The position numbers and the translations under genes are program-made. A model generated the notes under the pieces. It saw only the letters and a program-made list of their open reading frames with translations. It ran no database searches and was not told where the DNA came from. Shown piece after piece: positions 10,354-29,988 of a stretch of DNA of 34,538 bases. This DNA is from Deltaproteobacteria bacterium (GTDB lineage Bacteria; UBA10199; 2-02-FULL-44-16; JAAZCA01). Position 1 is the stretch's first letter, and every line of letters begins with the position of its first letter. The stretch lies in the NCBI GenBank assembly GCA_018645265.1, contig JABGOS010000091.1:1-34538 (forward strand), in the 5' to 3' direction.

Positions 10354-11466
10354 ATGAATGATGGCGATCTACAGTTAAAGTTATCTCAGCAGGTTAGGTG
10401 TCAAAGGGACACCGAAAGAGCGGACGAAAGTACGAGCGATAATCCGGTATGGAGGGTTACCGTCAGAAGGGTTGTTGCATTTATCATCGATGGATTGGCC
10501 CTTATGGCGACAGGCGTCCTTATTACGATGATCGGGGGAAGGTACCTATTCTTCATCGGTGATAATGGCTGGTGGATCGGAATTGTTATTTCAGCGATCT
10601 ATTTTGGAATGCTCGACAGCTCAATTGGAGGGGGCAGGACCCTTGGGAAGAGGTTTACAGGCATAGAGGTAGTAAAGATCGATGGCACACATATCGGTTT
10701 TCTTGATGCGCTTTTAAGATATTCCCCGTTCGCGATTATTGCGACCGTTATCCTCTTTACGAATCAGGCAAATGGCTATTCGCCGATAGTTGTTCTGCTT
10801 GAACTGATAGGCACGCTCACATTTCTTGCTATTGCGATCTTTGGCATGGTGCATCCTCAAAGAAGGTCTCTTCATGATCTTCTGCTCGATACTATGGTGA
10901 TCAAAAATGACAAGGTCTTTACGTTCAAGTCAGCTTCGATAAAAACCCCCCTGATAATTTTTTTGGTAGCTGGTTTTTTAATAGGGGGGGCTGAAATAGC
11001 CATGAAGGGTTATCTTATCTACAGCGCTGATGGGAGAAAGCTACACACACTGTATGAAAGGTTGGCAGTCAGAAAGGATATAGAGAATCCTCAGATCTCC
11101 CTTTTCTATACCTTGGGTAAAGATTTTAAGATCAGGAAGGCGGTGGTTATCAGGGCGTATGTTCCAGGGGGTATACGTACTGTTGTAAGATATAAGGATA
11201 CGAAGAGGATTGCGGATAATATAAAGATGTTTATTTCGGGGATCCATCTGGCGCCAGGAGATACAAAGGATATCATGATTGAGCTTAGAAGCGGATATAC
11301 TATTGGCATAGGTGGTGAAATGACAAGGTTTCACTTCAAATACCCTTATTCAAGACATGTCATACCCGTAATCAGGGGACCGAAAAAACCCATCATCAGA
11401 AGATTCCAGGGTGGAAGTAAGAAGAAATATGAAGTTGAGAAAAAGAAAACGGTTGAGAAGAAGTGA
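10354..11466 (+). CDS. RDD-family membrane protein with Lys-rich C-terminus
   Basis: WRVTVRRVVAFIIDGLALMATGVLI ... GKRFTGIEVVKIDG ... HPQRRSLHDLLLDTMVI is RDD-like; tail KKKYEVEKKKTVEKK. Start probably MNDGDLQ at 10354; the ORF track start is 10264. Confidence 0.8.
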   Translation: MNDGDLQLKLSQQVRCQRDTERADESTSDNPVWRVTVRRVVAFIIDGLALMATGVLITMIGGRYLFFIGDNGWWIGIVISAIYFGMLDSSIGGGRTLGKRFTGIEVVKIDGTHIGFLDALLRYSPFAIIATVILFTNQANGYSPIVVLLELIGTLTFLAIAIFGMVHPQRRSLHDLLLDTMVIKNDKVFTFKSASIKTPLIIFLVAGFLIGGAEIAMKGYLIYSADGRKLHTLYERLAVRKDIENPQISLFYTLGKDFKIRKAVVIRAYVPGGIRTVVRYKDTKRIADNIKMFISGIHLAPGDTKDIMIELRSGYTIGIGGEMTRFHFKYPYSRHVIPVIRGPKKPIIRRFQGGSKKKYEVEKKKTVEKK

Positions 11467-13075: not shown

Positions 13076-13414
13076 TTAGATTTTTCCCTGAAGCAGAAAA
13101 GCGATAACAAGTGCGTATATTACGAGCGACTCGATTAGGGCCAATGCGATGATCATCGGCGTCATGATCTTGCCGGCGGATTCAGGGTTTCTTGCGATGC
13201 CCTCCATAGCAGCAGTGGCAACCTTGCTCTGGCCGAAGGCACCGCCGAGTGTCGCAATTGCTATCGCAAGACCAGCCGCTATTGCCACCATCGCTTTGAA
13301 TTTGAACATGTCCCCGCTATCCTTTGCAGCATTGCCCGCAAACTCCTGGGCAATAGCAGAATTGGAAATTAGGAGAGCGAACGTTCCGTAGAAGATAGCC
13401 ATGATCTTTTTCAT
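13076..13414 (-). CDS. atpE: F0F1 ATP synthase subunit c
   Basis: Start MKKIMAIFYG at ~13414; signal-peptide-like N-terminus, then AIAAGLAIAIATLGGAFGQSKVATAAMEGIARNPESAGKIMTPMIIALALIESLVIYALVIAFLL. Confidence 0.93.
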   Translation of the reverse strand: MKKIMAIFYGTFALLISNSAIAQEFAGNAAKDSGDMFKFKAMVAIAAGLAIAIATLGGAFGQSKVATAAMEGIARNPESAGKIMTPMIIALALIESLVIYALVIAFLLQGKI

Positions 13415-13425
13415 AATCCCCCCGA

Positions 13426-14172
13426 TCAAAAAGTGTCCGACACTTTTTTTGCGTGGTGTTGTTCTAAACCGCCAGTTGCTAACGATATATATATAATCGA
13501 CAATAAGGTAAAGACAAAGGCCTGTATGAAGGCGATAAAAATTGCCATAAACATGAATATTATTGGGATAACAAACGGTATCAGTTCGGAAAATAAGCCC
13601 AGCACCATATGGTCGCCCATTATATTTCCAAAGAGCCTGATCGAAAGAGATATGGGGCGAACTATATGGCTTACTATTTCGATGGCGAGCATGAGTGGGG
13701 CAATCCAAACTATCGGTCCAGACATGCTTTTAAAGTACCCCTTAAATCCGAGCTCCCTTATTCCTGCGATATTGTAATATACGAACACGACGATTGCTAC
13801 GCTTAGGTTCGTATTGATATTTTCGGTAGGTGGCTTGACCCAAGGTATTACAGCCATCAGGTTACAAATCAAAATGTAGATGAAGATGATGCATATAATC
13901 GGAAGATGCCTTTTATATGATGGTCCTATTATATCTTCAGATATCCTGGATAGAGCAGAGATTAAGACTTCGAATATATTTATAGCGGAAGCCCTGTCAT
14001 CGGGCAGTAGATGATCTTCAGGAACTTTTGCCCTTTTCCAAACTGCGATAGAGAGCGCTGTTATTATAGCTAGCGCTATTACGGACATGGATATGTGAAT
14101 ATACTCGCTTGCGAGCGAGGGGTGCAGGTTTATGGCCTCTATTAACCATTTAAATGGCGTCTGCTTTTCCAC
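13426..14172 (-). CDS. atpB: F0F1 ATP synthase subunit a (GTG start)
   Basis: 248 aa; SLSIRLFGNIMGDHMVLGL and FIAFIQAFVFTLLSIIYISLA conserved subunit-a segments. Confidence 0.93.
   Translation of the reverse strand: MEKQTPFKWLIEAINLHPSLASEYIHISMSVIALAIITALSIAVWKRAKVPEDHLLPDDRASAINIFEVLISALSRISEDIIGPSYKRHLPIICIIFIYILICNLMAVIPWVKPPTENINTNLSVAIVVFVYYNIAGIRELGFKGYFKSMSGPIVWIAPLMLAIEIVSHIVRPISLSIRLFGNIMGDHMVLGLFSELIPFVIPIIFMFMAIFIAFIQAFVFTLLSIIYISLATGGLEQHHAKKVSDTF
13428..13450. repeat. Palindromic element copy 1: AAAAAGTGTC-C-GACACTTTTTTT
   Basis: Perfect 10-bp arms around a single C; overlaps the last codons of atpB (KKVSDTF*). Near-identical copy at 30235-30257. Confidence 0.85.
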
Positions 14173-16476: not shown

Positions 16477-17384
16477 AGGTGAGATGGAAGTTAACTGTTC
16501 GTCTTCTCCTGCTTACATTGATGATCCTTTTCGTCGCCGTCATCGTTAAAGATTCGACCCATCAGTTTCTGAGGGAGGAATATGATGTTGCCGAATCAAC
16601 CAGTGTTAAAGTTGCAAAAATTTCAAGGTGGATCTCCACAAATTCTGATTTTGAAATTCTTTTCGATGTCTGGCGATTGATGCAAAATCCTATGATAGCC
16701 TCTCGCGTTATGAAGGTTTTGGAAGAGGAGGATGGTGGGGTATACGATCTGCTGAAGGCATTCCTAATGAGAAACAGTTCGATAGGTATGCTCATGTTTC
16801 AGGGGGGGTTCGATAGTGCAGGTGAAGCACTGCAGCCCAGGTTTGTGGCCGTTGCACAGGGAAGCTACAATAAGGAGGAGATGGTCGAAGTAATAACATC
16901 TACCTTCGGTGACTCGGATGTCAGTCCAATCGATGTTGAAGGATTAAACGGCAATAGCGTGTATTGTGACGATCTCGATATGCAGTTTTGTTTTTCCTTC
17001 CTTGATGATGAACATCTCGCCATAGGTTATCGCACTTCATTTGAAGAACTCTTAGCCGGTCTGCCATCAAAGATCAGGTTGCCCGAGGATGTAAGGAGTT
17101 CAATGATAGCGGGCCAGGTGACTAAGGCTCCAAAATTAGCAGGTCAGAAGAAAATAAAAGAATTATATTTTTGGAGCAATGATGGTCAGAAGCTATTTGC
17201 CGTCCTACCTTATAAGAGCGTTTCAGATGCACTTGATGCTAGAATTCTTCTGGAGGGGATGAGGTCATTGTTGATGATGCAGAACGAAGGTCGCGAGAGC
17301 ATCATTAAGATTCTTCAGGGGATCAAAATTTATGATGACGAAGAGGATGTGTTTCTAGAGTTGAATATCCTCAATTTGATATAA
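16473..17384 (+). CDS. Membrane-anchored protein of unknown function, overlapping hpnG by 4 nt
   Basis: 303 aa; single N-terminal TM (LTVRLLLLTLMILFVAVIV), soluble rest with no family I recognise; ATGA overlap with hpnG stop. Confidence 0.75.
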   Translation: MKVRWKLTVRLLLLTLMILFVAVIVKDSTHQFLREEYDVAESTSVKVAKISRWISTNSDFEILFDVWRLMQNPMIASRVMKVLEEEDGGVYDLLKAFLMRNSSIGMLMFQGGFDSAGEALQPRFVAVAQGSYNKEEMVEVITSTFGDSDVSPIDVEGLNGNSVYCDDLDMQFCFSFLDDEHLAIGYRTSFEELLAGLPSKIRLPEDVRSSMIAGQVTKAPKLAGQKKIKELYFWSNDGQKLFAVLPYKSVSDALDARILLEGMRSLLMMQNEGRESIIKILQGIKIYDDEEDVFLELNILNLI

Positions 17385-20814: not shown

Positions 20815-21783
20815 ATGCAGGGAATTACAATCCCCATAAGGAAGGATCTGGATCGTCTCGAGGAGTTCTTTTCAAGTGCCCTTGGGTCAGGTGTGGATTT
20901 CGCTGATTCCGCAATAGAACTGATAATTCAGAATGGTGGAAAGAGGATCCGACCGGTTATCTTTCTACTCTCCGCCCATCTGTGCGGTTCATCATCATCC
21001 GATAATTACAGGACGGCCGCTGCGATCGAAATGATTCATGCGGCGAGCTTGCTTCATGATGATGTGCTGGATGATGCATCTATCAGAAGAGGTTCGATGG
21101 TGGTGAGGAAGCGTTTCGGAAATCGCACCAGTATCGTGGTCGGAGATTACTTATGGTCCAAGGGTATCAGCCTGATCATCCGTGAGAATAATATTGATTT
21201 GTTGAATGCGTCCTCTTGTGCGGTGGAGAGGTTGGTGGCGGGCCAACTTCTTGAGATGTCTAACTGCAACAAGGTCGATATGGAAGTTGAAACGTATATG
21301 AAGGTAGTGGAGAAAAAGACCGCATCCCTTTTTGCCATGTCCGCTGAGATGGGTGCTATTGTGGGTGGAATACAGGGGAGCCATAGAGAGGTTCTCTACA
21401 AGTATGGGACCGAGATCGGTATAGCTTATCAGTTGTGTGATGATCTTCTGGATTATATCGGGGGGGAGTCAACGCTTGGAAAAAGCTCTGGGCAGGATCT
21501 TAGAAGGGGTATAATGACATACCCTCTGATAGTAACGCTTGAAAGGGCTAATCGCTGCGAGAGAGATATTATAATTGAGGGATTTCTATCTGAGTGTCCA
21601 CCCGACGATATGTTCCGAAATATATGCAGCATAATGGATAGATATGGGGGCATAGCTGCAACCAGGGAATTAATATCAAAGACCTGTTTTTCCGCAAAGG
21701 AGATGATTGAAAAATTTAAACCATCCATTGAAAGGGATGCCCTGGCCAGCTTAGCGGATTTGGTCATGGATAGTATTCAGTAA
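20815..21783 (+). CDS. Trans-isoprenyl (polyprenyl) diphosphate synthase
   Basis: LLHDDVLDDASIRRG first Asp-rich motif and LCDDLLDYIG second motif; GGKRIRPVIFLLSA. Confidence 0.93.
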   Translation: MQGITIPIRKDLDRLEEFFSSALGSGVDFADSAIELIIQNGGKRIRPVIFLLSAHLCGSSSSDNYRTAAAIEMIHAASLLHDDVLDDASIRRGSMVVRKRFGNRTSIVVGDYLWSKGISLIIRENNIDLLNASSCAVERLVAGQLLEMSNCNKVDMEVETYMKVVEKKTASLFAMSAEMGAIVGGIQGSHREVLYKYGTEIGIAYQLCDDLLDYIGGESTLGKSSGQDLRRGIMTYPLIVTLERANRCERDIIIEGFLSECPPDDMFRNICSIMDRYGGIAATRELISKTCFSAKEMIEKFKPSIERDALASLADLVMDSIQ

Positions 21784-27217: not shown

Positions 27218-27250
27218 TAAAGGGCTCCTGAATTTCAGGAGCCCTTTTAT
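27218..27250. terminator. Bidirectional rho-independent terminator between convergent genes
   Basis: aaagggctcctgaa-ttt/att-ttcaggagccctttt: long GC stem with A-tract on one side and T-tract on the other. Confidence 0.92.
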
Positions 27251-28647
27251 TGTTTTAGTTGTTGGTTTATGTGATAGCACCAATGCCAAGGTTCAAAGTC
27301 TATTCCACTCATATTTGTTTTTGTGTAGGTTTGTTTAAATCCGTATTTAGATGCATTCTCCTCCAGCCATCTATATTCTTTGCTATCTTCGGAGACGGCC
27401 TTTCCAGTGCTCGCGTTTCCAAAATCTATGGCTAGTCTGTCAGTACATACGTGCTCGCTATTTTTAGGCAGTGCCACCAACGCTAAAGCCTTGGAAAGAC
27501 AATATCCGTTTTTCCTTATACTGGAAAGAATCAAAAAAATCTGGTACCCGTCTGAGCGATAGGCGGAATTTATCTTTAAGGAGACCTTTTCTTTTGATGC
27601 GTCAACCAAAAGTGAGATCAGAGCGTCCGTTGCGTCGGAATTTAACCAAAAGGATTTCTCGTTTCCAAGCTGATCTTTCTGTTTAAACGTCACGAATATA
27701 TTCTTGTCGAACGACCTATTACATTCGATATCGTGTTCACCTAAGATTTTATTTGATCGAATTAAGAGATTCTTTATGAACTCCCCTTCATCTGGAGTCA
27801 GTAATGCCATGAGGTCGTTCCGTGTGGTAAGGGATGCCATTCCCGTTTTTATGTCGAATGCTAAATTGCTGAATATCTTTGCAATTAGATAATCAATTCT
27901 GCGTGCATCGATTTCATTCAGCATGAAGTCGCAACTTGTCGAACCCGAATCAAGGGCAGCAATCGGGGGAAGGTAGTATTGTATAAGTTCATAAAAAATA
28001 TTAGCCCCTGAATTCATAAAGCTATCTGGTGGTTTTCCTTTAGTTATAAGTTTAGGGTTAGGGAGGATTGACGCAAGGAAGGCAGCCTCGTGTGGCCCAA
28101 TTTCAGCCGGTGTATTTTTAAAATAATATTGTGAGGCGTTACCTATTCCAAAAATACAAGGTCCCCACTCCGCTACATTGAGATAAAGCTCCAAAATCCT
28201 CTTCTTGGACAGTTTATTTTCAAGTTTGAATGTAATGATTGCCTCTTTAATCTTTCGAAAAATATTTTTTGAGGGTGTCATGTAGAGATTTTTTGCTAAT
28301 TGCATCGTGATTGAGCTTCCACCCCATACAAATTCTCCATGGCGGATATTAGCCTTGAGCGCGTGATATATGTTCCCCCAATTTAATCCTCTATGATAAT
28401 AGAATTGTGGGTCCTCAGCTAAGATGACGGCATTTGATAGAAACGGGGAGATCTCGTTCAACTGGTGCCATCTTTGAAGCGATACCTCGGGACACTTGAT
28501 CTTGATGAATGAGGTTGTGTTTGGATTTCTATCGATAAGATCGCTTACGTTGGGAGTGGTGAAATAGATAAACAAAAGCAACGATGTTAAAATAAACACT
28601 ATCAATACAAGGGAGAACCCCGCTGCTTTCATAGCTGATTTTATCAT
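27247..28647 (-). CDS. Bimodular peptidoglycan enzyme: GT51 transglycosylase N-terminal, VanY-like M15 D,D-carboxypeptidase C-terminal
   Basis: GT51: LAEDPQFYYHRGLNWG, WGGSSITMQLAKNLYM, RKIKEAI, KKRILELYLNVAEWG. M15/VanY: INSAYRSDGYQIFL, KNSEHVCTDRLAIDFG, YRWLEENASKYGFKQTY, FEPWHWCYHIN. N-terminal TM anchor. Confidence 0.88.
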   Translation of the reverse strand: MIKSAMKAAGFSLVLIVFILTSLLLFIYFTTPNVSDLIDRNPNTTSFIKIKCPEVSLQRWHQLNEISPFLSNAVILAEDPQFYYHRGLNWGNIYHALKANIRHGEFVWGGSSITMQLAKNLYMTPSKNIFRKIKEAIITFKLENKLSKKRILELYLNVAEWGPCIFGIGNASQYYFKNTPAEIGPHEAAFLASILPNPKLITKGKPPDSFMNSGANIFYELIQYYLPPIAALDSGSTSCDFMLNEIDARRIDYLIAKIFSNLAFDIKTGMASLTTRNDLMALLTPDEGEFIKNLLIRSNKILGEHDIECNRSFDKNIFVTFKQKDQLGNEKSFWLNSDATDALISLLVDASKEKVSLKINSAYRSDGYQIFLILSSIRKNGYCLSKALALVALPKNSEHVCTDRLAIDFGNASTGKAVSEDSKEYRWLEENASKYGFKQTYTKTNMSGIDFEPWHWCYHINQQLKQ

Positions 28648-29988
28648 TTAGAAAGGACAGGCGATTCTACGGTTTTATGAAGCAATTCATCAGCCCATGT
28701 TTTGTAATACAGTGTGAACGATGTGCCAGAGCCACCTTTTGAGGAATCGGTTACTTTTTCCTTTAACCTAATTGCCCAAGAGCCTGAGGATGTATTCTCA
28801 TCCGGGAGAAGTGGTATAAATATATTAACAATATCCGCTGTTACGTTTTCTTGTTTGGTGGAAAAGCATCTAGCGGCACTGTCCTCCGCATCGGTGCCAC
28901 CAGCCTCGCCGTACAAGCAATAGTTAAATGGGTAAGCAAGGGGGTTATTTATAATTTTGTTATTGTATGTGGAGCCGAGGTCACCAAAGTTGGCAAGGGG
29001 GTCTTCAAGCAAAGCAGTTCCTACATTTATATATTCATCGGCTTTAATTCCTAAATATGGTTTTGCGGGATCTCCAAAAAATTTCATGTAACTGAATGGC
29101 CTTTTGTGCGTTACAGCACCTGTGCCAGATGCCTTGTAATTCTCCTGATCACCTGTGCGCATTTCAACGTAGGCCGCTTTTACGTTAGAGAGATCCCAGT
29201 TTATTACGAAGGCACCCTCCCTAACGGCGTTGGCGCAAGCCCCAACTGAATCGGAACATTGAAGATCGGAGGGTATCCAGTCTGGATGGTCATCATTGTT
29301 GAAATCTCCACAGTAGCATCCGGTTAACGATGCTGATGTCTCAGCCTGTTCCTCACCCTCATTTAATGTGCTATCCGTTGTGCCAAATGGATTTTTATAA
29401 TCACCGCCTACGCTTTCCGAAGGGGAAGCCTGTATGCCATTCGATGAAAGCACATTGAAATGCTTTGAATAGGTTTTCATCTTGCCGTTGGATAAAAATA
29501 TTTCGATCTTTCCAGGACTGGAAGTGTCCGGCACTGTGATGCTGAATTTGCCCGAAGTGGAAGGAGGTTGTAATGGAGCGTCTTCCGCTCCTGCTTGCGA
29601 ATCGTCTGCGGAGAGCTCGTCGATAGGTAAATTTTCATCCTGCGTTGAACCGTCTGCTGCAATTTCGATTTCTGTTTTGGTTTCAGATGTTGGAATGTCG
29701 GATATCGACAAGGCTCCCATGTTGATCATCTGTACTGCTGAGCTTCCAAAGACCACTTCATAGTCAGATGTATAGTTTGAAACATCCAATTGAATTACCG
29801 TTCCAGGCAAACCGGACTCGGGTGATACGCTATTTATTACCGGTACGAACAGTAATTCAGAATTGCCAACCCCCCCCGCTTTTCGGATTGCACTGCGTCA
29901 TCAGTATGAATGAAAATGAAACCAGCAGTAGAAGGATTGTTCTGTAGAAGTTCGTGTGAATGATATTATTCTTAAAAAGGTTTCTCAT
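28644..29988 (-). CDS. IPT/TIG-like lipoprotein-like surface protein, interrupted by a frameshift at a G8 tract
   Basis: SD GGAGG then ATG at 29988 encodes MRNLFKNNIIHTNFYRTILLLLVSFSFILMTQCNPKSGG; at the G8 tract (29870-29877) the frame shifts and stops after ~43 aa. Removing one G joins it to VGNSELLFVPVINSVSPESGLPGTVIQLDVSNYTSDYEVVFG.. (track ORF 28644-29810). Confidence 0.8.
29870..29877 (-). repeat. Homopolymer G8 tract (C8 on plus strand) inside coding sequence
   Basis: Direct count: 'aattgccaac cccccccgct'. Confidence 0.95.

Follow-up and report, generated by a model that had tools for sequence, protein, structure and literature searches.

A lipoprotein gene split at a G8 tract beside a peptidoglycan transglycosylase gene in a deltaproteobacterial genome

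A lipoprotein gene with its two halves in different frames

In the window (the whole stretch of 34,538 nucleotides analyzed here), a lipoprotein gene is split at a homopolymer of eight G residues, so that its signal-bearing start and its body lie in two different frames that meet at this tract (Table 1). We tentatively favor the explanation that an ordinary slippage mutation, real rather than artefactual, has put an otherwise selected gene out of frame within a conserved lipoprotein-transglycosylase operon; we rank a sequencing or assembly indel second, a selected switch third and recoding last.

The start of the open reading frame, read directly from the sequence, consists of GGAGG followed by an ATG at 29988 on the minus strand, encoding MRNLFKNNIIHTNFYRTILLLLVSFSFILMTQCNPKS. 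As the first-pass annotation had described, this well-placed start leads through a signal peptide and a Cys into the G8 run, which begins four codons past the Cys of LMTQC, and the frame stops after 43 codons. The second frame has no stop between the tract and the stop codon at 28644-28646. From the base composition, the probability that 406 codons are free of stops by chance is about 7e-11, and the remaining two frames contain 21 and 33 stops.

Table 1. Coordinates of the split lipoprotein gene and its downstream neighbour in the window
Feature	Position	Strand	Evidence
First 37 codons of the lipoprotein gene, encoding the signal peptide and the Cys (LMTQC)	29878..29988	-	Ribosome site GGAGG upstream, hydrophobic core ILLLLVSFSFILM
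G8 homopolymer (C8 on the plus strand), Gly codons of the tether, point of frame change	29870..29877	-	Sequence read
Lipoprotein body, read in the second frame, with an IPT/TIG-like N-terminal region followed by the conserved C-terminal domain	28644..29864	-	TIG matches, homologues in five relatives
Monofunctional peptidoglycan transglycosylase fused to a VanY-type D,D-carboxypeptidase	27247..28647	-	Transgly E 3.8e-47, VanY E 1.3e-21
Terminator-like stem of 13 bp, flanked on each side by a T-rich tail; closes the two-gene operon	27219..27247	-	Sequence

A profile search of 46 genomes of the class identified homologues of the lipoprotein in five other genomes (G009, G010, G022, G027 and G034). 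All five are intact: the signal, the Cys and the C-terminal domain are encoded in one frame, and the signal and Cys occupy the position equivalent to that in the window. Therefore, the signal half and the body half in the window are one broken gene, which bears out the earlier proposal of a single lipoprotein gene split by the G8 run. In addition, the region behind the Cys in G009 and G010 (PALTDIVPSKGAPG and PQIADINPTEGPAG, respectively) resembles the second frame of the window (PVINSVSPESGLPG). Given that two frames meet at the tract and that the homologues show the joined architecture, the length of the G8 run would determine whether a full-length or a truncated product is made.

The homologues are distant from the window protein, with 23-29% identity, and the gene is absent from the three other genomes of the family. 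In the C-terminal domain, the window copy retains the conserved residues (W, NYC, C, YY and A), and thus no decay is visible after the break. The Gln before the Cys, which had been flagged as atypical for a lipobox, is present in LMTQC; the corresponding pairs are GC or AC in the relatives and NC in another lipoprotein-like gene of the same genome.

The suggested IPT-like N-terminus also appears to hold. The TIG domain (Pfam PF01833) scored 16.7 bits in the window protein, under the Pfam cut-off of 20.9, and 29.2 bits (E 9.2e-7) in the relative G010, above the cut-off; an IPT/TIG-like region was found in the homologues of at least two of the five relatives. The window protein may thus resemble IPT/TIG-domain proteins in its N-terminal region, and its poor structure model (mean pLDDT 52) also matches an IPT/TIG domain of EBF1. 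It differs from these proteins in its C-terminal domain (28644-29315, with the motifs W..NV.SA, NYC and YY..WA), which has no Pfam match; every member found belongs to this class and adjoins a transglycosylase. No match to the window lipoprotein was found in NCBIfam, and the search of solved structures gave a weak match of the N-terminal part to cyclodextrin glucanotransferase and nothing else. We dropped the assignment of a fold to the C-terminal domain from the model, given its pLDDT and its matches, which were mainly to generic beta-sandwiches.

Pairing of the lipoprotein with a peptidoglycan transglycosylase

In all six genomes, the lipoprotein gene is located directly upstream of a peptidoglycan transglycosylase gene, and this operon adds to the account given in the first-pass annotation. 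The enzyme in the window holds PF00912 and PF02557 only, that is, it has a Transgly domain and no transpeptidase domain. The fusion to VanY is found in four of the six genomes (the window genome G000, G009, G022 and G027) and is absent in G010 and G034. Such a fusion beside the lipoprotein, which occurs in four of the 46 class genomes, unites polymerisation with the trimming of stem peptides in a single chain. The lipoprotein stop codon and the transglycosylase ATG overlap by 4 nt (ATGA) in the window, and the gaps between the two genes are 69 nt in G009, -1 nt in G010, 4 nt in G034, 48 nt in G022 and 51 nt in G027. The two-gene operon is conserved and presumably functional. A transglycosylase match was obtained in 44 of the 46 genomes of the class, and the window genome has further ones; therefore, the lipoprotein-transglycosylase pair is accessory.

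Because this pairing is fixed, we infer that the lipoprotein serves the adjacent transglycosylase in the way that PBP1A and PBP1B are served by LpoA and LpoB. LpoA and LpoB are outer-membrane lipoprotein activators of these class A PBPs (PMC4632607), and the two systems are alike in that a lipoprotein is linked to a peptidoglycan glycosyltransferase, the link here being a conserved gene pair. However, the partner in our case is a monofunctional transglycosylase, in some genomes with VanY, rather than a class A PBP; activation is putative, and none of the six members matched the Lpo families in Pfam at E<=1. By analogy with LpoA and LpoB, a protein laid out as signal, Cys, Gly-rich tether, IPT/TIG-like domain and unnamed C-terminal domain could reach from its membrane to dock with, or regulate, the adjacent glycosyltransferase. 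The conserved partner points to a periplasm-facing role in the cell wall, which makes the earlier description of the product as a surface protein doubtful. The lipoprotein and the transglycosylase form a family still without a name and, in a lineage that has received little study, a candidate for an Lpo-like partnership.

G tracts in the window and throughout the genome

It had been cautioned that uninterrupted G7 tracts occur in other genes of the window. Two of these are found at the positions given (10984-10990 and 16802-16808), whereas the third lies at 21460-21466 and not at 21470-21476. GGGGGGG was observed five times in the window against an expectation of 3.15, and 24 of 100 dinucleotide shuffles reached five. 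In the whole genome, we counted 28 tracts of at least eight G compared with 29-36 expected under a first-order chance model, six of at least nine compared with 7-9, and two of at least ten compared with about two. A genome-wide excess of G tracts, which is typical though not obligatory for phase-variable loci, was not found; with tracts at the chance level, we ruled out a genome-wide phase-variation repertoire. Loss of mismatch repair was also ruled out, since mutS and mutL are intact in the genome.

According to our classification, 12 of the 28 tracts lie in other coding frames, six immediately precede a start codon and nine are intergenic or unclear; only the window tract interrupts a gene. 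All 12 of the other coding tracts, which are 8-10 G long, are in frame, including those in HemW-, MlaE- and TolQ-like genes (names that reflect our reading of the translations). Lipoprotein tethers just behind the Cys hold three of the 28 tracts, namely the window tract, L028 and L038, although random placement would give roughly 0.1 by a rough estimate that assumes about 150 lipoproteins. L028 (G000:C97, 1407-1414) and L038 (G000:C141, 2001-2008) are lipoprotein genes in which the G8 of the Gly tether after the Cys is in frame. In the five distant homologues, no G run longer than six was found in the first 240 nt.

Origin of the frame break

The reading that we prefer, if tentatively, is that slippage in the G8 run of Gly tether codons altered its length, which would have put the lipoprotein gene out of frame in the sampled population. 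The G8 allele would then give no lipoprotein, and, because of the ATGA overlap, the untranslated 1.2-kb stretch would probably result in less of the downstream enzyme. Since no decay is seen in the remainder of the gene, the change of frame would be recent, and it would be reversible in principle; its cause would be ordinary homopolymer instability and not an evolved switch. However, the three tether tracts exceed random placement, which leaves room for selection, the Gln before the Cys is atypical for a lipoprotein gene, and the basis of the cell-wall role is the gene neighbourhood, the structure model being poor. A sequencing or assembly indel, with the true tract in frame and the gene intact and expressed, seems rather unlikely. 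With 161 contigs for 2.24 Mb, the assembly is fragmented and apparently a MAG, likely G-run artefacts occur in the related records G001 and G002, and the good conservation of the remainder of the gene also fits this explanation. However, that the other coding tracts are all in frame makes frequent assembly indels unlikely, and a scan for frame breaks in 139 kb of the genome revealed no other clear split gene, the candidates reading as ordinary neighbours or alternative starts. Given these two results, homopolymer errors do not appear to be rampant in the assembly, and a single error may have occurred. As for programmed recoding or transcriptional slippage at the G8 run, which would yield some full-length protein, homopolymers are slippery and both frames are otherwise well formed, but none of the five relatives has a comparable tract or frame break; such a mechanism would be private to this lineage, and we regard it as highly improbable.

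The first-pass annotation had proposed that the locus is phase-variable. The position of the tract inside the reading frame, just after the signal and the Cys, agrees with this proposal, but we found no sign of switching: tracts are no more numerous than chance predicts, the genome has its mismatch repair genes and the relatives lack the tract. As a selected contingency locus, the gene would undergo reversible slippage at the G8 run that turns the lipoprotein, and with it the coupled transglycosylase-VanY, on and off, producing mixed envelope states. We consider this doubtful, although several observations favor it. The tract lies right behind the signal of a gene that is otherwise intact, and it passes the cut-off of PhasomeIt for Campylobacter, under which 7 or more G or C constitute a potentially hypermutable repeat (PMC6321876). 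Tethers hold more tracts than random placement would give. In other bacteria, long G/C and other homopolymers vary: C. jejuni NCTC 11168 shows this for G/C tracts of 8 or more (PMC6321876), and in N. meningitidis homopolymers of at least 8 are mostly variable (PMC5084427). Furthermore, homopolymer indels in the C. jejuni peptidoglycan hydrolase gene pgp1 alter cell shape (PMC5530802). Against a contingency locus, tracts occur at the chance level throughout the genome, whereas those of Campylobacter peak at 9-10 G (PMC6321876); mutS and mutL are present; the tract is absent in relatives, and neither L028 nor L038 is put out of frame by its tether tract; and Gly-rich tethers favor G runs even without selection. 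The known systems show the same mixture of likeness and difference. In the poly-G genes of Neisseria (hmbR and hpuA) and Campylobacter, the length of a G run within the reading frame likewise sets the frame (PMC3786947, PMC6321876), but length variation among isolates is documented there, whereas here we have one genome, with a G8 tract, chance-level counts and mismatch repair genes. The pgp1 case is similar in that homopolymer indels change a cell-wall function, but it concerns a hydrolase gene with short A or G runs in selected clones, whereas the gene in the window encodes a lipoprotein and adjoins a glycosyltransferase gene. On/off flipping could occur, but the length of the G8 run does not exceed what chance alone permits.

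It is more improbable still that GGG-coded, Gly-rich lipoprotein tethers act as contingency sites in this uncultured lineage, giving stochastic control of cell-wall synthesis through envelope lipoproteins and the coupled transglycosylase-carboxypeptidase. If the tract really switches, phase variation would act on peptidoglycan synthesis. If it does not, the locus is a useful caution against inferring phase variation from one split gene at a G8 run in an assembled sequence.

Other homopolymer runs

We also considered the long G runs of G001 and G002 as support for variable tracts and rejected them as likely artefacts. One locus of G001 (G001:C7, 2777-2893) contains a G39 near a G10, and the G10 abuts an apparent Illumina adapter (AGATCGGAA) and Ns; in G002 (G002:C64, 1996-2014), a G19 lies at a contig end and is likely an assembly artefact. 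A candidate second split gene at 13076-14172 in the window, beside a C6 run, proved to be two neighbouring genes, those for ATP synthase a and c. The G6 run at their junction (13418-13423, minus strand) seems to lie close to the ribosome site that serves the c gene.

The six tracts directly before start codons, in the window genome (L007, L008, L037, L039, L040 and L044), are G8-G10 runs that serve as ribosome-binding sites, and three of them (L007, L037 and L039) precede lipoprotein-like genes. A change in the length of such a tract would shift the spacing and not the frame. Relatives also have G tracts at ribosome sites (for example, L170 and L209), and therefore this part of the pattern is general.
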